Positions 4,782 to 32,982 of a DNA stretch of 43,702 bases are shown here, in pieces. The position numbers and the translations under genes are program-made. Source of the DNA: a virus; the IMG/VR virus record IMGVR_UViG_3300030333_001323, positions 1-43,702 of that record. One strand, written 5' to 3'. Position 1 is the first letter of the stretch; each line of letters starts with the position of its first letter. The notes under the pieces are model-generated. The model worked only from the letters and a program-made list of their open reading frames with translations. It was not told where the DNA came from and searched no databases.

Positions 4782-5045
4782 CTATTCGGCTTCCCTCTCG
4801 GGTAGTTCTAACGGCCCCATTAACCAACCTTCAGGTAGAGTGACTTTGTTTTTTGAAAGTTCCCACTCTGTACCATTCCAGTAGTAAACTCGGCCTGTGA
4901 CATTCGGCCCTGTACGCACCAAATTGTCACTCGGCTGAATGAAGACTGCTTTTTTTCCACTTGTCAAGCATCCGTTGCTCCCAAGCATTACGCAACTTGC
5001 GAGGAACAAGAGGGGCAACCGTTGCTGTAACTGGTTCTTTAGCAT
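4782..5045 (-). CDS. Predicted lipoprotein, possible o-spanin
   Basis: An 87-aa protein with a lipoprotein signal: basic N-terminus, hydrophobic LPLLFLAS and Cys18 in a perfect LASC lipobox (a second Cys26 follows NG). The mature part is about 70 residues with a YYWNGTEWELS segment and an acidic end. Such a protein should be exported and anchored to a membrane. Its start lies inside the 57-aa gene 4927-5100 in another frame, the overlapping layout common for Rz/Rz1-type spanin genes. Together with the holin-like gene upstream this suggests a lysis role, but no homology was recognised. It could instead be an envelope lipoprotein affecting superinfection. The start is uncertain. Confidence 0.6.
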   Translation of the reverse strand: MLKNQLQQRLPLLFLASCVMLGSNGCLTSGKKAVFIQPSDNLVRTGPNVTGRVYYWNGTEWELSKNKVTLPEGWLMGPLELPEREAE

Positions 5046-5646: not shown

Positions 5647-6374
5647 GATATAGCTATACGATCTTCCACATATTTATGGAAAGCTTTATCCCCGTTTTTA
5701 TATAGAGGATTTTTCATCTCCTCCAACATCTCATAAGTCGAACCATACGGCTTAATGCCTGCCGCCTTGCCTCCTTGAACTAGGTTAGGAGTAGTAGGGG
5801 GTTGGGCTCCTGACGATAGATAAGCTGAGTACAATCCTTGGATAGCCAGCTTAGCCATGTTGGCATTCTTACCAGAGACAGCCTCATCATAGGCATCCAT
5901 CTCAGCTTCCGACAGATTTTCTTGAGCCCATGCAATCATGTTCTGGTAGTTGTCCTCCCCTCCAGCAAGATTAAATAATTCGGCGGTTGCCTCTTGGCTT
6001 AGCCGCTCCTGACCTTCAATGAATTTATCCACGAGGTCTCGTGAGATTCCCTTCTTAGCTAACTCATCATAAGAAGCATCGTTTAGCTTTCCCTCGTTAT
6101 CGAGATACTCACTCTCGTATTTCTCAAAATCTGAGGCGGTAAGAAGTCCTTGTTCCTCGGCCTTGGCAGAAGAAAGCTTTTTCTCAAGCTCCCCATAAGC
6201 TTTGGCCAACGCTTCTTCGTTAGCGAACTTGTCAGGGAGCCAAGAAGGTCGCTCTCTTGCTTCGGTTGGGGTCTGTTCCTGACTCTCTTCGACTTGTTGT
6301 TCGACTTGTACGTCTTCAGTCGGTGCATCAGGCGGGGCCTCTTCTCCAGTTATCTCTACTCTTTCTACTGCCAT
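5643..6374 (-). CDS. Capsid scaffolding protein (T7 gp9-like)
   Basis: Guides assembly of the procapsid and is then lost. The protein is 243 aa, strongly acidic and mostly helical: residues 1-45 are Glu/Pro/Gln-rich and disordered, followed by a RPSWLPDKFANEEALAKAYGELEKKL segment typical of this family, a Glu/Asp-rich central region, and a C-terminal basic/aromatic part (AFHKYVEDRIAI) likely to bind capsid protein. T7 gp9 is 307 aa. It lies between portal and capsid genes as in T7. Its ATG shares bases with the previous stop (TAATG). Confidence 0.88.
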   Translation of the reverse strand: MAVERVEITGEEAPPDAPTEDVQVEQQVEESQEQTPTEARERPSWLPDKFANEEALAKAYGELEKKLSSAKAEEQGLLTASDFEKYESEYLDNEGKLNDASYDELAKKGISRDLVDKFIEGQERLSQEATAELFNLAGGEDNYQNMIAWAQENLSEAEMDAYDEAVSGKNANMAKLAIQGLYSAYLSSGAQPPTTPNLVQGGKAAGIKPYGSTYEMLEEMKNPLYKNGDKAFHKYVEDRIAIS

Positions 6375-15160: not shown

Positions 15161-17371
15161 TCAGGAGGCAGCATACCACAACTGTTCCGGCATGTCAAGC
15201 CCAAAGATTTCTCCTATTACCCGGGTTACCTTTTGCTGCAGCTTATCACAATCCCGGGGAGGTACACCATAACAATCGTGGAGGGTGAGGATGTCAGGCC
15301 ACTCGTCTTTCGCCAGCACCTTGTGAAGCATCGCAGCATCATAGGCATGAGTTTTATTAGCAGGCCATGAGCGACGAGCATTTCGGACATCTAGACCATC
15401 CCAAGGCTGGTTGACTCTAGCTACCACTCGCTCTTTGTTGATCGTTGTTCGTACTAGGACTTTTTGCTGAGGCAAATAGGAATTGATCACAGGAAAACCC
15501 GATGGGCTTTGCCATGATAGTAAGGCGTCTCCCTGTTCCTGTGCAGTCACTTTGAGATGTCTCTTGATGGTAGGAGAAATGTCATCGAGGACTGAGAGAT
15601 ATATGTCGAGTAGATCGTCGATTTCTACGTAAATTTTTCGCCCAAAAATATCCCGGCTCTTGTCGATGTACCAATCTTTGACAACGTGTTTCAAGCCGTG
15701 CTTCTTAGACCCATAGAGAAGTCTGACGGTGAGTCCTTTGATGAGGGTTCGATCCAAGTCGAGGGAGACCCAAGCATGGTGTTCAGGTTTGTGAGACCAT
15801 TGGAGTTTGTCCCTGAGCTTATCGAGGATATCCGAGTAGACATCGTGAGGAGTTTCAGAGTCAGTCAGGTTGGTCAACTCCATCAGCTTTTCATCCTTAT
15901 GAATCAAGGCAGCTATCTGTAAACCCGAGGCGGTATGATCAAGTCTTACCGGGAGCCTAGTTTGGAATGTAAATCGATTGTTACGCCACTCATTGAACTC
16001 CCTGCACCAAGCCAGAAAGGGGAAGGGTTTGTCAGCCTCCTCCCAGAACCCCCGGTAGCCCCAAGGATCGGTAGCAGCTAGGGTGATATGCTTCTGATTG
16101 TTCAAGGCCCACTCTTGGCGTGATTCCAGAGTACCCTTGATGCCGTAGGCGTTGGCTCCTCCAATCAGAAACCAATGCTCGTTGCCGTGGACGGTAGAGG
16201 GGTTAGCAAACTCAAGGAGACCTTGGGCCAAGTCATTGCCTTGAGGGTTCAACCGAGGGGCATAGTAGAGCCTACCCCTGAAGTCAGCTTGAACCGGGAA
16301 GTAAATCGAAGGGGAGTCCACAAACTCCTTGGCGATGGTAGTTAGATTGTTGGTGAGAATGACCTTGGGGGCGTCAATTATCCGCTGCCTGTGTCTTTTG
16401 GCTTGACACGAGCGATAACCTTTGGTATACTTGGGTTCTTCCAAGGGCTCATCTCTATGACTTCTCATCTCCCCTATACTAAGCCCCCTCCCAAGACTAC
16501 TAAGGGTAAACTCTAGAATCCAACGGTTAATCCTGAAGGGTACTCTCTGGAGGGTGTTAGCTGCATCTAAAGATAACCCAAGATCAGCATAAGGCTTCTT
16601 ATCCTTCACAAACCCCTTGATGAAGAACCAATCGATTTTATCAGGGAACTCATAGCCTCCCTCTTCCCCTGACTTCCAATCTAAAGGTTGTTCTCTGAGA
16701 GGGAGGTAGTATGGAAGCAAGTGTTTCACATGGTCGTTGTACTCCTGTATCCATCTTGAGGTTTGAGGGGTCGCTACCACCATGTACTCAAACTTCAGTT
16801 TAGACTTACGTTGCTTTACATACTCTATTAAGCCTGTCGTGATTCTAAAGATTTCAACTAGAGATAACCCTAGATGTATTCTAGAGGTGATGGGGATGTC
16901 TAACTTCCAAGAGTCTCCAAAGGTCTTGAGGGCGTTGCGAACTACGATGTTGCGCTTGTACCTATAGGATACCCTACTCTTCATTGTCTTTTCCGTCTCC
17001 TTCCAGAACTTAGGTTTGTCTGCCTTCAGTTTCTGAAAGGTAAGCTCGTCTACCAGTAGGCATCCTATTTGCAACGCTAGTTTAGTTCTAGTGATTGGCT
17101 TAGAGATGCCGTCGATAATCTGAGTGAGTGTAAGATGAGAGATGAGGTCTAGCGATAGCCCTGAGACCAACTGCCATTCGGCGGCATGGTAACCAGCGTG
17201 ACCGCTTAGCTTAATTTTAAGTTCACGCTTGAGTTGTGCTGTGAACTTATCTTTGAACTCCTTGGCCAGCCGCTTGCCATACTTAGTCTTAGACTCGCGG
17301 CCCTTCTTACGTAGCCTTTCGGTTCTCTTCGTATATCGCAGGGCTCCCTGCTTGATGGACTCTTCAGACAT
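15161..17371 (-). CDS. Phage RNA polymerase, single-subunit (T7 gp1-like)
   Basis: Transcribes middle and late genes from phage promoters. It is 736 aa, shorter than T7 (883), chiefly in the N-terminal half. Catalytic elements: QADFRGRLYY (361-370), LDHTASGLQ with D478 (T7 D537), K545 and Y553 in IKGLTVRLLYGSKKHG (T7 K631, Y639), and LHDCYG with D699 (T7 D812). The C-terminus ends in a hydrophobic LWYAAS, equivalent to the T7 FAFA foot. ATG at 17371 has no Shine-Dalgarno. It directly follows a terminator-like hairpin and is preceded by an in-frame-coupled TAATG from an overlapping frame. The reduced N-terminal domain suggests altered promoter recognition. Confidence 0.97.
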   Translation of the reverse strand: MSEESIKQGALRYTKRTERLRKKGRESKTKYGKRLAKEFKDKFTAQLKRELKIKLSGHAGYHAAEWQLVSGLSLDLISHLTLTQIIDGISKPITRTKLALQIGCLLVDELTFQKLKADKPKFWKETEKTMKSRVSYRYKRNIVVRNALKTFGDSWKLDIPITSRIHLGLSLVEIFRITTGLIEYVKQRKSKLKFEYMVVATPQTSRWIQEYNDHVKHLLPYYLPLREQPLDWKSGEEGGYEFPDKIDWFFIKGFVKDKKPYADLGLSLDAANTLQRVPFRINRWILEFTLSSLGRGLSIGEMRSHRDEPLEEPKYTKGYRSCQAKRHRQRIIDAPKVILTNNLTTIAKEFVDSPSIYFPVQADFRGRLYYAPRLNPQGNDLAQGLLEFANPSTVHGNEHWFLIGGANAYGIKGTLESRQEWALNNQKHITLAATDPWGYRGFWEEADKPFPFLAWCREFNEWRNNRFTFQTRLPVRLDHTASGLQIAALIHKDEKLMELTNLTDSETPHDVYSDILDKLRDKLQWSHKPEHHAWVSLDLDRTLIKGLTVRLLYGSKKHGLKHVVKDWYIDKSRDIFGRKIYVEIDDLLDIYLSVLDDISPTIKRHLKVTAQEQGDALLSWQSPSGFPVINSYLPQQKVLVRTTINKERVVARVNQPWDGLDVRNARRSWPANKTHAYDAAMLHKVLAKDEWPDILTLHDCYGVPPRDCDKLQQKVTRVIGEIFGLDMPEQLWYAAS

Positions 17372-17541
17372 TAAAAGGCCGTAGCCAGCGGAAGAGAAGG
17401 GACACAGCGACCAACCTCTGCCCCAAGAGAAACACCAGCTACGGCCAAATTATTTGTTGCGACTTCGGTTGTATTTCTTGGAGCGAATCGTAAGATTCTT
17501 ACGTGAGTTGTTCTTAGGATTACGGTCTTTGTGGTGGACAT
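17371..17541 (-). CDS. Possible overlapping leader peptide upstream of RNA polymerase
   Basis: A 56-codon frame (ATG at 17541) overlaps the HNH gene in another frame and ends as TAATG on the RNA polymerase start. It has GGGAG about 9 nt before its ATG and runs through the hairpin at 17373-17446. Since the RNA polymerase has no ribosome site of its own, termination and re-initiation from this frame would explain its translation. The peptide itself (begins MSTTKTVILR) has no recognised features. It may be chance. Confidence 0.2.
   Translation of the reverse strand: MSTTKTVILRTTHVRILRFAPRNTTEVATNNLAVAGVSLGAEVGRCVPSLPLATAF
17373..17446 (-). terminator. Terminator-like hairpin directly before the RNA polymerase start
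   Basis: On the minus strand a perfect 9-bp G+C-rich stem (17438-17446 with 17377-17385) has a 52-nt loop and is followed by four T, then the RNA polymerase ATG. The short T run and long loop make it a weak terminator. It may be an attenuator, an RNase processing site, or a structure controlling translation of the polymerase. Confidence 0.45.
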
Positions 17542-17677
17542 CTTTTCCATCTCCCTTCTTAGCTCTTCCTGCACGAATCATCAGACTCCGAGCGCGATTC
17601 CTCCCCGCCCTCCTCTTCTTTTGCTTAGGTTTGGAGTGGTAGGTTTTGTATTCCCTCTTGTAATCTCGGTGAGCCAT
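17450..17677 (-). CDS. HNH-type small nuclease/DNA-binding protein
   Basis: A very basic 75-aa protein from ATG at 17677 (MAHRDYKREYKTYHSK); a longer start at 17716 would add 13 residues. The C-terminal half has GDGKDVHHKDRNPKNNSRKNLTI, an HNH core with the paired His, a central Asn and a following Asn-Leu. Small proteins of this pattern occur in many marine podoviruses next to the RNA polymerase. It may nick DNA or act as a homing-type nuclease, but it is free-standing and no intron is evident. It lies 78 nt before the RNA polymerase, downstream of the iterated repeats. Confidence 0.72.
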   Translation of the reverse strand: MAHRDYKREYKTYHSKPKQKKRRAGRNRARSLMIRAGRAKKGDGKDVHHKDRNPKNNSRKNLTIRSKKYNRSRNK

Positions 17678-17742
17678 GAAGCCTGCACGGAGATTGCTGG
17701 CATTTCTTTTTACCATTGTCAATAAGTAACTGGCTAGTAAGT

Positions 17743-17750
17743 ATGATAGT
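17743..17750 (-). promoter_or_regulatory. ACTATCAT motif upstream of the HNH/RNA polymerase genes
   Basis: The 8-mer ACTATCAT on the minus strand recurs in the intergenic regions at 17743, 21754, 22025 and 23042. It contains TATCAT, a 5/6 match to a bacterial -10 box, and its ACTAT resembles the core of T7-type promoters. No convincing -35 box is seen at this copy. Confidence 0.35.
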
Positions 17751-17770
17751 AGTTGCCCTCGGAAAGCGAG

Positions 17771-17909
17771 ATCGGAAGCCTAATCAGACACTAAACCAGA
17801 CAGAAAAAACATGTGATTAAGCCTATAAACAAAGGGTGAAATAGAGATTTGTACGGAAACTTCAGACACTAAATCAGACACCAAATCGGAAACCTAAATC
17901 GGAAACCAA
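17771..17909. repeat. 12-bp iterated repeats (iterons) upstream of the RNA polymerase operon
   Basis: Seven related 12-bp units in two clusters, on the plus strand close to ATCrGAmACyWA. Cluster one is at 17771-17803 (three units, the last partial). Cluster two is at 17861-17909 (four units, spaced 12, 12 and 13 bp). The 12-mer TCAGACACTAAA occurs twice exactly, as does AAATCGGAAACC. The stretch has stops in the frames examined and lies between a terminator and the HNH gene. Tandem units near one helical turn suggest protein binding: an operator, a replication origin or a promoter array. Confidence 0.75.
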
Positions 17910-17944
17910 AAAGAAACCCTGAGTCAGCTAATGCCAACTCAGGG
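17908..17944 (-). terminator. Rho-independent terminator after the DNA glycosylase gene
   Basis: Perfect 8-bp stem CCCTGAGT/ACTCAGGG (17937-17944 with 17917-17924 on the plus strand), a 12-nt loop, then TTTCTTTTT on the minus strand. It closes the early transcription unit 36 nt after the glycosylase stop. Confidence 0.88.
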
Positions 17945-17979
17945 CCACCATTGAAAACTATGAAAAAACTGTCTACAAC

Positions 17980-18672
17980 TTAAACGCTTAATTCATTCTG
18001 CACCACCTCCTTTCCTTTGTAGTATTTCCAAATGAAGAGGTCTAGTTCTGCTGGGCTCATGCCCTGCTTTGCTGCTTCTCCAAGGAAGAGTGTTTCGATC
18101 AGCTTGTAAATGCAAGGGTTACTTGGAGTAATTGCACCTAGCCGAGTTTTGAAGTAATGACCATACTTGCTGCCCATGTACTTCATGATATGAGTGTCTA
18201 ACACAGCGTGTTGGGCGTTTCGCTGCGAATGCACTACGAAGAATCTGGCAGTCTTAGGGCCAATGCCGTGGATTCTCTCCAGTTCTTCTACAGTAACTAC
18301 TTTAAGATTTGTACCTTTGCCAAACGGATCAAGGAACTTTTCCGTACATTCTTTTAAGCAATTGCTAATTCGATTGTATTGACCAGTTCCCCAGTACTTT
18401 AGCCATTGGTGCAAACAGTAGTGTTCAATAAGACAATGAATAAAGCTCATCGGACTGTGAATCCTCAAGCCTCCCCCTACATCGTATGTAAGGGGAGACT
18501 CTTGTTTCACCAAGTCGTTGAACTTTGAGTCATGACTTATACTAAACATCTTGTTGACAATATCTGCTATTCTTTCGCTTTCTTTATTAGCAACAAGAAC
18601 AGAGAACACTAAGAACAATTCAAGTTCTGGGTGATTTCTGTCGTATCTGGTGATTCTCTTAGGTTGAATCAT
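17980..18672 (-). CDS. HhH-GPD superfamily DNA glycosylase
   Basis: Excises damaged or modified bases from DNA. It is 230 aa. A helix-hairpin-helix, LERIHGIGPKTARFF (131-145), has Lys140 where EndoIII K120 lies, and VLDTHIMKYM has Asp159 in the place of the essential EndoIII D138. Having both Lys and Asp suggests a bifunctional glycosylase/AP-lyase. There is no C-terminal Cys cluster, so no iron-sulfur cluster. The N-terminal 125 residues are helical with no recognised subfamily, so the target base cannot be named. It overlaps the upstream CxxC gene by ATGA, ends the early unit at a terminator, and might act on host or phage modified bases. Confidence 0.78.
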   Translation of the reverse strand: MIQPKRITRYDRNHPELELFLVFSVLVANKESERIADIVNKMFSISHDSKFNDLVKQESPLTYDVGGGLRIHSPMSFIHCLIEHYCLHQWLKYWGTGQYNRISNCLKECTEKFLDPFGKGTNLKVVTVEELERIHGIGPKTARFFVVHSQRNAQHAVLDTHIMKYMGSKYGHYFKTRLGAITPSNPCIYKLIETLFLGEAAKQGMSPAELDLFIWKYYKGKEVVQNELSV

Positions 18673-18854
18673 CTCCAGTCTCTTGGATTGAAGTCGGCTC
18701 CAATTTCAAAGATATGAACATCACCTTTCGTAGCTACGTGACGTACTTGTGATTTCGCACATCTACGACAACGAGGTCTATGCTTGGCTAGTTCAGCTTT
18801 ACTGAAGTCAGTACGCTCTTCATCACAGTAGAAACATACTTTTGATTCAGCCAT
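18669..18854 (-). CDS. Small zinc-binding (CxxC-CxxC) protein
   Basis: A 61-aa protein with C7-x2-C10 and C29-x2-C32, separated by 18 residues, a pattern suited to one zinc ion in a treble-clef or ribbon fold. A basic stretch (KHRPRCRRCAKSQVRH) overlaps the second Cys pair, suggesting nucleic-acid contact. It has one of the best ribosome sites in the early block (GGAGGA, 8 nt before ATG). It overlaps the downstream glycosylase by ATGA and may work with it or regulate it, though only the pairing supports this. Confidence 0.72.
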   Translation of the reverse strand: MAESKVCFYCDEERTDFSKAELAKHRPRCRRCAKSQVRHVATKGDVHIFEIGADFNPRDWR

Positions 18855-18933
18855 TGTACCAATCCTCCAATATGATTGCTAAGAACATGATAGTGAAGAA
18901 TAACGATGATATGCCCAAGATGTATAGGATCAT
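18847..18933 (-). CDS. 28-aa single-TM membrane peptide
   Basis: ATG at 18933 overlaps the stop of the 141-aa gene as ATGA, and its TGA overlaps the start of the CxxC gene. AAAGAG lies just upstream. The peptide begins MILYILGISSLFFTIMFLAI and ends EDWYNG: an almost wholly hydrophobic helix of about 22 residues. Tight packing between two genes and a full membrane-span length make it a credible small membrane protein. It may act on the host envelope early in infection. Confidence 0.55.
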   Translation of the reverse strand: MILYILGISSLFFTIMFLAIILEDWYNG

Positions 18934-19355
18934 GACTCTTTAGGTGTGCAGATTACGTTGAAGCGAGGGTTGGCCTCACCAACAAGTTCTCTAGCAGCTT
19001 TCTCATCGTCCTTGAGTTGCTGCTCAACGTCTTTCTCAGGATCAGGCCAATGCTCATCCCACTTATTAGACAGAATCCTGACTTGCTCTCTGATAACAGT
19101 AGGAGGAGTAGGTCGATTCTTGTCGCTCAGCATTAGACTTAATCCGTCTTCTGCTTTACGGATGAGCCTCTCTAACTCAGTAGCATTGAGGTATTGACAG
19201 ATGTAGAGAAGCTTCAGCTTAGGTAAGTTGATACCTTCAATGTTGTAGTCATTACTCTTATTGCTAATTAGAGTTGCGATCTCTGCCTCCTGTTCAGCTT
19301 GGATTTTAAGCTGAGTACGCAGCGTTGGTTTTCTAGTGTTGTATTTACGTTTCAT
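18930..19355 (-). CDS. Hypothetical early protein
   Basis: A 141-aa, charged, mostly helical protein. A basic N-terminus (MKRKYNTRKPTLRTQ) is followed by a long helix, a LPKLKLLYICQYLNATELERLIRKAEDGLSLML segment with a leucine-rich heptad-like pattern, and a Trp/Pro-rich WDEHWPDPEKD region before an acidic then neutral end. No family is recognised. It lies 2 nt after the previous gene, in the same early operon, and overlaps the 28-aa peptide gene. Confidence 0.7.
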   Translation of the reverse strand: MKRKYNTRKPTLRTQLKIQAEQEAEIATLISNKSNDYNIEGINLPKLKLLYICQYLNATELERLIRKAEDGLSLMLSDKNRPTPPTVIREQVRILSNKWDEHWPDPEKDVEQQLKDDEKAARELVGEANPRFNVICTPKES

Positions 19356-19357
19356 TT

Positions 19358-19624
19358 TCAGTCCCAGTTTACGAAGTTATAGTAGAACCTTGGTCGATCT
19401 GTGAACTCAAGGGTTCCTTTTTGTTGATCTGATTTGCGAATAACAGTTACTGTAGGAGCCAGAAAAGACTCAACTTCAAAGTCTTTACGAAGTTCCTCAG
19501 TATTCCATACTTGGTCTTCACCGAAGGCTTTCTCAAGAACCCTACGGGCAGCAAGAGTCTTATCTTCAGTATCCGTGATAGTTTGGACTAATTCATCCAT
19601 TGGAGTAAGATTTGTATAACTCAT
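19358..19624 (-). CDS. Hypothetical early protein
   Basis: An 88-aa protein from ATG at 19624. A GTG at 19657 would extend it by 11 residues, but that start lies within a strong hairpin. The sequence is acidic, with a helix LAARRVLEKAFGEDQ and a C-terminal part TLEFTDRPRFYYNFVNWD rich in aromatics. No family is recognised. It is followed 2 nt later by the next gene of the operon. Confidence 0.62.
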   Translation of the reverse strand: MSYTNLTPMDELVQTITDTEDKTLAARRVLEKAFGEDQVWNTEELRKDFEVESFLAPTVTVIRKSDQQKGTLEFTDRPRFYYNFVNWD

Positions 19625-19633
19625 TAGTGTAAC

Positions 19634-19663
19634 GAGGGGATGACCCGTGAGGATCACCCCCTC
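19634..19663 (-). other. 10-bp hairpin between early genes
   Basis: Arms 19634-19643 and 19654-19663 pair over 10 bp with one G-T pair, around a 10-nt loop that can pair further. No T run follows on either strand. It fills the gap between the DUF932 gene and the next ATG, so a role in RNA processing or transcript stability is more likely than termination. Confidence 0.55.
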
Positions 19664-21863: not shown

Positions 21864-21876
21864 TTTAATATGTATT

Positions 21877-21937
21877 CCACGACCCACCCCGAGGGGCGGC
21901 CGCACGGCAGCCCCGGGCCGCCCCTCGGGGCGCGTGG
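21877..21937. repeat. G+C-rich perfect inverted repeat
   Basis: Perfect 15-bp arms (21887-21901 and 21916-21930) around a 14-nt spacer, with outer CCACG/CGTGG arms (21877-21881 and 21933-21937). The block is far richer in G+C than its surroundings and contains a GCGGCCGC site at 21896-21903. No T run follows on either strand. It lies about 120 nt upstream of the GP88 gene, in the early control region. Confidence 0.8.
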
Positions 21938-23504: not shown

Positions 23505-25223
23505 CTAGCGGGACATCCATGTGGTGGGAACTTCCTTAGTTCCCCAGAGGCGATTGTAGGAGTCCAAATGGGCCTCTAGAGCCTTCGTGACTTGCTCATC
23601 CTTGTACTCAGCTACAGCTTTATCCGTATGTTGCTCCATTCGTTCTACCCAGTAGGCGACAGCCATTGCTAGGGCATCCAAGCGGTCATCATGACGTAGA
23701 CTACCTTTGTCAAAAGTAAGTCTTGACATCTGGTAGAACAGTTGGTATAATGTTGAATCCCCCGTGAGGTTCCTAAGAGCATCCTTATGTTCAACACTAT
23801 GATATCTATTGACTCCACTAAAGTCTCCCTCCACCACACTCTTACTCACCACTAACTTATGGGTATTCATTAGAGGTTCTAGAGTATCTATGATGCGTCT
23901 CTCTTTCTGGATGGAGTGTCTAACCTCCTCTATGGTGCAGGGATACCCTACTTCTTCAGATAAGACGGGTTTGAGGAGGGAAGAGAACATTCCATCTCCA
24001 AAGTTAGACTCAACAATGATGTAGTTTACCTTGTTTTCCCTAGCTATTCTGGCGAGAGCCTTGAGTGTTGCTGGGGTATATCCCCCTAGAAACCCTCCAG
24101 ATTCAGTCACAAAGAGTTGAGAGTTGAGGATTTTGACTACTGCATAGGCTGTTTCGTCTTTACCCATGCCTGCAGGGTCTATGGACATCACCGATCCAGC
24201 GTAGGGCTGGTGATCTGGGGTCACTTCCATAGGTCGATAGAAGCGATCTCCAGCTAAACCCGGGCATGGACAGTCTTTCCACTCTAATTCTGGAGATGAG
24301 GCCCATGTCAGCTTGGAAGCAGCCTTCTCGTTATCCAAAGGATGCACGATGAGGTCAGCACAGCGAAGAGGGTATCTCCCCATGTCTGACAGGGAGGTAT
24401 CCAGCATGTACTGGAGAGCAAACCCTGATTTCCCGTAGCTGGCCTCGCGTTCTCGCAAGTCTACATCATCGAACCTCTGGGCGTCTACGGGTTCTCCTTC
24501 CTCCTTATCCCCACATAAATCTAAGACATAAGGGGCTAAACGGTCTCCGTAAGAGGTTTTTGTCTTCTCAGTAGGTATTCTGGCAGGCCAAATCCTGATC
24601 TCATAGCCACGCTCAGGCAGGACGTTGTAGATCGACATCTCCGTCTGAGGGGTTCCGAGGTAGACAATACGTCCATCTGGCTTCAAAACAGCGTCAAACT
24701 CCTTGATTGTCTCCGTAATCTTGTCCCTCATCATCTGAGTGAGAGAGTTGTTGAGAGACTCAACGTCATCAGCCACTATGAGGTCAGCACGGCTTCCTGT
24801 TAGCTGGCCCGTTATCCCTACACTCTTTACAGAAGGAGCATGAGCCGCTGGGGCAGGCCCTACATCAAAGCTTATCTTAGAGCTTCTCTGGTCTTCCCGG
24901 GGAGCGAGGTGCATCAGGATGGGCATCTCGTTGATCAACCTGAGCGTAAACGTCGAGAAGTCATCTGACCGTGTTTTCGATGCGGAGACCACCAGAATGT
25001 TCAGAGCAGGGTTCAGCAACAACTGGTGGATCACGTAAGCTGACGTAATCCAGCTTTTGCCTACCCCTCGAAACGCCTGAATACAACAGCGTTTAGGCCC
25101 ATGCTGAACATATTCAGCTATGTCGTATTGAGTGGGAGTTGGATCAGGGAGACCTAGATGCTTCCAAGTGAGGTAGAGGAAGTTTCTAAAGTCGTGTAGC
25201 TCTTCTGGTATCTGAGTGGCCAT
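23505..25223 (-). CDS. Terminase large subunit (T7 gp19-like)
   Basis: ATP-driven DNA packaging motor with a nuclease that cuts concatemers. It is 572 aa (T7: 586). Walker A is FRGVGKS (51-57), Walker B is DLIVADDVE (147-155), and a TQMMRDKITETIKEF helix and YLGTPQTEMSIYNVL (coupling motif) follow. The RNase H-like nuclease domain starts with MSIDPAGMGKDETAYAVV and ends near HDDRLDALAMAVAYW with its conserved acids. It is the last late gene, followed by the hairpin island. T7-like enzymes cut at specific sites to make terminal repeats, so the genome ends should be nearby. Confidence 0.97.
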   Translation of the reverse strand: MATQIPEELHDFRNFLYLTWKHLGLPDPTPTQYDIAEYVQHGPKRCCIQAFRGVGKSWITSAYVIHQLLLNPALNILVVSASKTRSDDFSTFTLRLINEMPILMHLAPREDQRSSKISFDVGPAPAAHAPSVKSVGITGQLTGSRADLIVADDVESLNNSLTQMMRDKITETIKEFDAVLKPDGRIVYLGTPQTEMSIYNVLPERGYEIRIWPARIPTEKTKTSYGDRLAPYVLDLCGDKEEGEPVDAQRFDDVDLREREASYGKSGFALQYMLDTSLSDMGRYPLRCADLIVHPLDNEKAASKLTWASSPELEWKDCPCPGLAGDRFYRPMEVTPDHQPYAGSVMSIDPAGMGKDETAYAVVKILNSQLFVTESGGFLGGYTPATLKALARIARENKVNYIIVESNFGDGMFSSLLKPVLSEEVGYPCTIEEVRHSIQKERRIIDTLEPLMNTHKLVVSKSVVEGDFSGVNRYHSVEHKDALRNLTGDSTLYQLFYQMSRLTFDKGSLRHDDRLDALAMAVAYWVERMEQHTDKAVAEYKDEQVTKALEAHLDSYNRLWGTKEVPTTWMSR

Positions 25224-31284: not shown

Positions 31285-32982
31285 TCATGAACCAGACCAA
31301 CTAATTTGACCACCGTTGATGGTAGAAGAAGTAGTTAAGACTGTGTTATCAATGGCGACAGCATTGGCAGTAACAGAAATACCCGTACCTTGTCCAACGT
31401 GGAGAGTAGCCTCACCAGAGGAGAAGCTGCCTGTTAAACCGTTCCCTCCGTATACGCCTGTGATATCGCCAGTTGGAAAAGCATCTACTACGAGATCAAT
31501 CGTACCATCGGTATCCTGATAAGTTGCAGAGATACGAGTCTCGGTATTGCTGGTGAACATAGCACCAACAATGTCTTGAACTTGCTCAGTAGTTAAAGAG
31601 TTTGAGTCCGTCCAAGGAACATTGACGTACATCTTTTCGCTATCGACTTCTACGGGGTAGTTTTTCCCGTTCTCCGTATAACCGATTTTGAAACCACCTC
31701 GTACGCTAGAAGAGCCTGCAGGAAGTGAGTAATTATTCGCACCATCAGCAACATTCAGCAGAGTGCGAACATTAGATGGAGATAATTCCTGATGGTTGCC
31801 AGAACCGGGATCGGTACGACCTACTAATGTACTTGTGGCTACTCCTGAAAGAGTTGAGGTAGAAGTAGCGGTTGCAGCGTTGCCCGTACAAGACCCAGAA
31901 GAACCAGTTACGTTACCTATAAACGAAGCAGCACGAATGTTGAGGTTCGTGTTCCACTCGGTTCCGCTGTTATCAATGAGGAAGTTGCGATCAGCAGCGT
32001 TGTCAGTAGGATCAACGTAGATACCAGCCCCATCAGAATTAGCAATGGAGTCTACTCCCTTACCTAACTGAATTGCTTTATCTGTAATTTCAAGATTTGT
32101 AGTAGCTACAGATGTAGTTGAGCCTTCAACTGTTAAGCTTCCCGGGATTTTAATAGTAGTACCTGACGCACCTAGTGTCAGCGTGTTACTCCCCACACCA
32201 TCAAAAATCGTGTGGTCGGCAGCCGTCATATCGATGTCAGTCAAACCCGTCAGTCCTGCGCTGGTAGCACCAAGGGCTGTGGAGGTTGCACCGATTGTGA
32301 CTGAACTGTTGGCTAACTTACCGTTGGCAATGCTGCCAGCAAGCTGAGCGTTTGTGATTGTTCCGGTAAGGCTAGAGGTAGGATAACCAGTAGCATCTTG
32401 AAGATTGAACGCTGGAGTTGCGTCAGACGCGCCAAGAGATAGAGTGACTCCTCCAAAGCTAACAGATGAATTCGCTAGTTTGCTGTTGGCGATACTCCCT
32501 GCAAGCTGAGCATTGGTAATTGTGCCGGTAAGGCTGGAGGTAGGATAGCCCGTAGCATCTTGGAGATCGAATGCCGGGGTAGCATCAGACCCTCCTAAAG
32601 ACAGAGAGACTCCTCCAAAGCTTACTGAAGAGTTAGCCAGCTTGTTGTTTGCAATGCTTCCAGCTAATTGGGCATTACTGACGCCCAGAGCTTTAATGGT
32701 AAGGGTATTACCCGTTCCATTCGCATAATCCATAGCAGAAAGCGCAAAGTCATTACTGCTAAAGGATGCTGCGCCGGGGACTGTTGAGGTTGCTATGCGT
32801 CCTCGGACTTCAAAAGGTTCTGGATCACCATCGCCTGTGCTGGGGTCTGAGGTAGCGCGGCCTATGAATAGACGGTTTGACCCGTTTACCCAGCCTAGTT
32901 CTCCATACGCTAAATTACTCCCAGTAGGATAATTCGTGCTGGTATGGCTATCGGATCGTGCAACTTGTACTTTATTTGCCAT
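31285..32982 (-). CDS. Tail fibre protein with internal repeats
   Basis: A 565-aa fibre protein. The head contains GELGWVNGSNRLFIGRA, a motif common in marine phage fibres. Two to three repeats of a unit with NSSVSFGG, LSLG-SDATPAF-LQDATGYPTSSLTG and TITNAQLAGSIAN follow (period about 53 residues). A DNTADRNFLIDNSGTEWNTNLNI segment and one copy of the SSSVRGGFKIGYTENGKNYPVEV unit shared with the next gene come later. The C-terminus has TEQVQDIVGAMF and a TDGTIDLVVDAFPTG segment. The shared unit suggests exchange between the two genes. It follows the gp17-like fibre gene by 12 nt. Confidence 0.8.
   Translation of the reverse strand: MANKVQVARSDSHTSTNYPTGSNLAYGELGWVNGSNRLFIGRATSDPSTGDGDPEPFEVRGRIATSTVPGAASFSSNDFALSAMDYANGTGNTLTIKALGVSNAQLAGSIANNKLANSSVSFGGVSLSLGGSDATPAFDLQDATGYPTSSLTGTITNAQLAGSIANSKLANSSVSFGGVTLSLGASDATPAFNLQDATGYPTSSLTGTITNAQLAGSIANGKLANSSVTIGATSTALGATSAGLTGLTDIDMTAADHTIFDGVGSNTLTLGASGTTIKIPGSLTVEGSTTSVATTNLEITDKAIQLGKGVDSIANSDGAGIYVDPTDNAADRNFLIDNSGTEWNTNLNIRAASFIGNVTGSSGSCTGNAATATSTSTLSGVATSTLVGRTDPGSGNHQELSPSNVRTLLNVADGANNYSLPAGSSSVRGGFKIGYTENGKNYPVEVDSEKMYVNVPWTDSNSLTTEQVQDIVGAMFTSNTETRISATYQDTDGTIDLVVDAFPTGDITGVYGGNGLTGSFSSGEATLHVGQGTGISVTANAVAIDNTVLTTSSTINGGQISWSGS

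Follow-up and report, generated by a model that had tools for sequence, protein, structure and literature searches.

According to the account of Boeckman et al. (2022) given in the LUZ100 paper (PMC10134795), a MarR-type regulator has been proposed to act in temperate T7-like phages through sites on either side of the promoter that precedes the RNA polymerase gene. In plasmid pSM19035, the parS sites of the omega ribbon-helix-helix (RHH) repressor are contiguous 7-bp heptads that lie over promoters and are bound cooperatively (PMC9499535). Saito et al. (1980, cited in PMC10142737) placed the primary origin region of T7 itself close to genes 1 and 1.1. The region is AT-rich, lies downstream of gene 1, contains the promoters phi1.1A/B and has no iterons.

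Here we describe an array of short repeats that shares features with each of these systems. The stretch analysed (the window) is the whole of IMG/VR virus record IMGVR_UViG_3300030333_001323, 43,702 bases in length and derived from environmental DNA. Compared with the MarR sites of temperate T7-like phages, its array is made of about nine short direct units that lie upstream of the promoter elements instead of flanking them. As the window has no integrase, no MarR and no recognisable HTH_3 or RHH_1 regulator, we do not file it under the temperate T7-like switch. It resembles parS of pSM19035 in its contiguous short repeats in a promoter region and in the cooperative binding that we propose below, but its units are 12 bp long and no RHH or ParA gene was recognised in the window. 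Like the T7 primary origin region it is AT-rich and close to the RNA polymerase gene, although it lies upstream of that gene. The sequence-only reading had remarked that T7-like phages normally lack iterons at this place, and T7 bears this out: the host C promoter and the start of gene 1 are 58 bp apart, which leaves no room for them.

Results

The window phage is a member of the Autographivirales (T7-like), with a single-subunit RNA polymerase and T7-type replication and structural genes in T7 order. T7-like proteins include the RNA polymerase, a gp2.5-like SSB, endonuclease, primase/helicase, DNA polymerase and exonuclease, as well as portal, scaffold, major capsid, tail and internal virion proteins and terminase. 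Every identified gene is on the - strand, where terminase (23505-25223) is followed by an intergenic stretch, early genes (22.7-18.0 kb), RNA polymerase, replication genes and structural genes. The structural block exits the window at its left edge and resumes at its right edge; the record therefore looks like a complete or near-complete genome in circularly permuted form. Two further features were seen in this plan. A very GC-rich long hairpin (21876-21937, - strand; 101-nt fold of -54.7 kcal/mol, z -4.3) sits in the 436-bp gap before a GP88-like gene, and a 162-bp tandem repeat (32323-32664; 2.1 copies, 79% match) lies inside a tail-region gene.

The array occupies one of the few long intergenic stretches of the window. 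Seven direct 12-bp units, in clusters of three and four, were confirmed where the sequence-only reading had put them. On the + strand, TCNGANAC units start at 17772, 17784 and 17796 (CCAGACAG) and at 17862, 17874, 17886 and 17899, the last step being 13 bp and not 12. Two weaker units lengthen the clusters, one at 17759 (13 bp before 17772) and one at 17853 (ACGGAAAC, 9 bp before 17862), which brings the array to about nine direct units. Read along the - strand, cluster 1 (17853-17910; units 17899, 17886, 17874, 17862 and the weaker 17853, of GTTTCCGATTTA and GTGTCTGATTTA forms) comes before cluster 2 (17759-17807; units 17796, 17784, 17772 and the weaker 17759), and a 45-bp AT-rich spacer (17808-17852; 69%) separates them. 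Tandem units at this regular spacing exceed chance. Lag-12 autocorrelation of positions 17723-17914 gave 87 matches against 52.3 expected (z=6.1), a score reached in 0 of 5000 dinucleotide shuffles, and lag 25 gave z=3.9. Cluster 1 was also found independently by Tandem Repeats Finder. When the rest of the window was scanned for units, only scattered single near-matches appeared.

The - strand consensus of the unit is GTKTCYGATTTR. Across the nine units, positions 4, 5 and 7 are always T, C and G, respectively, and the last four columns are variable, a conservation figure judged partly on units that had been picked by their core. Positions 3 and 6 covary in all nine, reading TTTCCG or TGTCTG (TC and GT forms, respectively). 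The two related forms that had been suspected from the sequence are therefore real, but they do not alternate as had been suggested; instead they are blocked, in the - strand order TC TC GT GT TC for cluster 1 and GT GT TC TC for cluster 2. Spacing is 13 bp between TC-TC neighbours and 12 bp between other neighbours, with one pair at 9 bp. T7 primase sites follow the rule (G/T)2GTC (PMC12839067), which the GTGTC form alone fits and the other unit form does not, and we rejected primase sites as an explanation. A single-strand hairpin function was likewise rejected, as the array folds no better than its shuffles, and a search for known RNA families found none.

The position first given for the array, with a terminator on one side and the HNH and RNA polymerase genes on the other, is correct. 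Upstream, the early block ends with a gene for a helix-hairpin-helix/glycosylase-like protein (17980-18672, - strand; phrog_11575, weak HHH), which has tblastn matches in Caulobacter and other phages. A strong intrinsic terminator (17915-17946, - strand), with a 14-pair stem followed by TCTTTTT, closes the block and adjoins the array. Downstream, in - strand order, lie an ACTATCA element (ACTATCAT, 17743-17750), a TTGACA read by eye (17717-17722), an HNH endonuclease-like gene (17450-17677; PF13392, phrog_4590 and homologues) and the single-subunit T7-type RNA polymerase gene (15161-17371; phrog_414, E=1e-126; PF00940). The HNH start at 17677 is taken from homologues, and the reading frame is open to 17722. 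The array overlaps neither ACTATCA nor TTGACA: its downstream end lies about 10 bp short of the first and about 35 bp short of the second.

We compared five syntenic relatives (L032, L039, L040, L041 and L043), whose polymerases are 42-46% identical to that of the window. All five have a common plan of terminator, variable spacer, ACTATCA, host-type promoter, HNH and RNA polymerase. It follows that the RNA polymerase belongs to a transcription unit of its own and that the array lies within the control region of this unit. ACTATCA is kept at the same place, and 22-31 bp further on comes a TTGAC-N17/18-TAAT-like promoter (distances and -10 boxes by eye). The -10 boxes are poorer in L032 and L041, and L040 has two tandem ACTATCA copies. 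The window's TTGACA falls where the relatives have TTGAC(A/T)-N17/18-TAAT-like promoters; its own -10 is weak. In L039, CAACTACAAAGGGGGCCACGGGGG precedes the RNA polymerase unit and recurs inverted just after the terminase gene (1108-1135 and 6075-6105), and L041 has a similar AAAGGGGGCCACGGGG before the unit (about 4825-4845).

Other promoter-like sequences run against the genes. A perfect TTGACA-17-TATAAT promoter (23723-23751, + strand) lies inside the end of the terminase gene, directed against all genes, and L039 has an 11/12 match to it in antisense at 816, about the same distance from the terminase gene end. The RNA polymerase gene contains an antisense TTGACA-17-TATACT both in the window (16403, + strand) and in L039 (7453). 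The two copies have almost matching positions in the gene, which may be due to no more than conserved coding.

In 153.5 kb of the clade, no 7-mer is more strand-biased than ACTATCA, with 59 copies on the coding strand and 0 on the other. Besides the window, L032, L039, L040, L041, L043 and L045 have it, and the extended form ACTATCAY is, in its four carrier contigs, limited to the part from the early genes to helicase/DNA polymerase and absent from the late genes. All 11 window copies are on the - strand between 15.5 and 23.05 kb (23049, 22808, 22435, 22032, 21761, 21309, 20900, 19582, 18894, 17750 and 15521). ACTATCA overlaps the codons of an LSW motif close to the 3' end of the RNA polymerase gene. 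These codons are CTA TCA TGG in 7/7 genomes where the LSW motif was located, one of which reads GCTATCA; in those genomes, CTA makes up 12-23% of Leu codons and TCA 15-36% of Ser codons. ACTATCA probably serves as a transcription or RNA element specific to the phage, possibly as a promoter core.

A conserved unit spacing in relatives, the lack of which would count against the sequence-only reading by its own standard, was not found at 42-46% polymerase identity. The array is wholly missing there: at the corresponding place, no significant short-period array, of 12 bp or any other unit length, is present in the five syntenic relatives, and for the most part their spacers share no sequence similarity. 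For the nearest relatives by portal (L002-L006, 86-89%), the contigs stop short of the RNA polymerase; the close-relative contigs IMGVR_UViG_3300037842_000047 and 3300006753_000035 break off just before the region that corresponds to 17.7-18.0 kb. Searches with RNA polymerase, HHH, GP88 and DUF932 found no nearer copy of the region. Pattern scans for the units gave 3 matches in IMG/VR and 19 in GTDB genomes, with no array in the former and no comparable array in the latter. Because it is absent from the five relatives and no nearer copy was found, the array seems, as far as can be seen, to be lineage-specific; it would have been gained in the window lineage, or lost or replaced in the relatives.

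This distribution is also expected if the array has no function, a 12-bp unit having arisen and been duplicated by replication slippage in a fast-changing spacer, where it now decays. The adjacency of same-form units agrees with such local duplication. However, the unit core is kept while its flanks diverge, and in cluster 2 the flanks have diverged with the spacing intact. Idle DNA of about 150 bp is also rarely kept in compact phage genomes, and on balance we consider slippage unlikely, if the most serious competitor.

The layout of two clusters around an AT-rich spacer could also suit a replication origin, at which an initiator would bind the iterons and the spacer would open. Among 50-bp stretches the spacer ranks in the least stable 0.7%, and the distance of the array from the presumed left end, about 5-6 kb, is similar to that of the T7 primary origin near genes 1/1.1. 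Nevertheless, less stable stretches exist elsewhere in the genome, and no known initiator was found among the family matches of the window, many of whose ORFs match no family. The sign change of GC skew is weak (minimum near 19180), and T7 itself has no clear flip at its origin; we rejected GC skew as a way of assigning an origin here. Moreover, replication of the T7 type is initiated at polymerase promoters and not at iterons. We regard an origin as improbable. Of the earlier suggestion that the array binds protein cooperatively, as at an origin or an operator, protein binding stands as the best reading, whereas the origin has no specific support.

The same layout recalls the arm-type sites of a phage attachment site, in which two clusters flank a recombination core. 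In several T7-like phages the RNA polymerase gene has an integrase gene nearby (PMC10134795), and at this place the relative L020 has, by eye, an apparent tyrosine recombinase reading frame. However, the window has no Phage_integrase (PF00589) match, in a search whose positive controls succeeded in 14/14 genomes, and integration arm sites are largely refuted and very improbable. A last reading is a centromere-like site bound by a ParR/omega-type RHH protein, as in plasmids, since the array resembles R1 parC in shape: two groups of direct near-11-bp repeats separated by some 40 bp. The pSM19035 repeats described above offer a second parallel. Against this, no RHH_1 match and, among identified genes, no partition ATPase was found, and the gene plan is lytic; we give a centromere hardly any weight.

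Discussion

We tentatively favour, at somewhat less than an even chance, a lineage-specific cooperative operator or activator array, which would serve as a regulatory binding site upstream of the RNA polymerase transcription unit. Periodicity beyond chance, an invariant core with variable last columns, the position in a control region and precedent would all fit this reading. Against it, the MarR_2, HTH_3 and RHH_1 models found no binder, the array is missing from the five syntenic relatives, the pattern scans of IMG/VR and GTDB genomes yielded no comparable array, and the array overlaps neither promoter element.

In an operator or activator array, a phage or host protein would bind the KTCYGA core of each unit and spread cooperatively from unit to unit. 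As 12 bp corresponds to 1.14 helical turns, the bound protomers would wind round the DNA. The bound array would repress or activate the promoter that starts polymerase synthesis, and would thereby time the switch from early to middle/late genes. Several early ORFs are of no recognised type. Three early ORFs (18669-18854, 18930-19355 and 19358-19657) without a convincing counterpart in relatives are candidate binding proteins by association only; for the lineage-specific 141-aa product of 18930-19355, the structure model has a mean pLDDT of 53 and is unusable. We rejected MarR, HTH_3 and RHH_1 regulators as binders, since MarR_2 (PF12802) has no match in the window up to E=10 and the HTH_3 and RHH_1 models have none either. 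With both PF12802 and the tyrosine integrase family PF00589 unmatched, we do not count the window as an example of the temperate T7-like lysogeny switch. A bolder and rather unlikely version is that a phage with no recognisable integrase or MarR evolved its own two-class iteron switch, in which a protein winding along the DNA ahead of the RNA polymerase unit times or vetoes the whole infection programme.

The ACTATCA motif may prove the more interesting observation of the two. As for the array, the RNA polymerase gene is what commits the infection in T7-like phages. If the repeats are an operator array, a phage that shows no sign of lysogeny would gate the expression of its polymerase, and a regulated version would be added to a group usually thought to follow a fixed programme.
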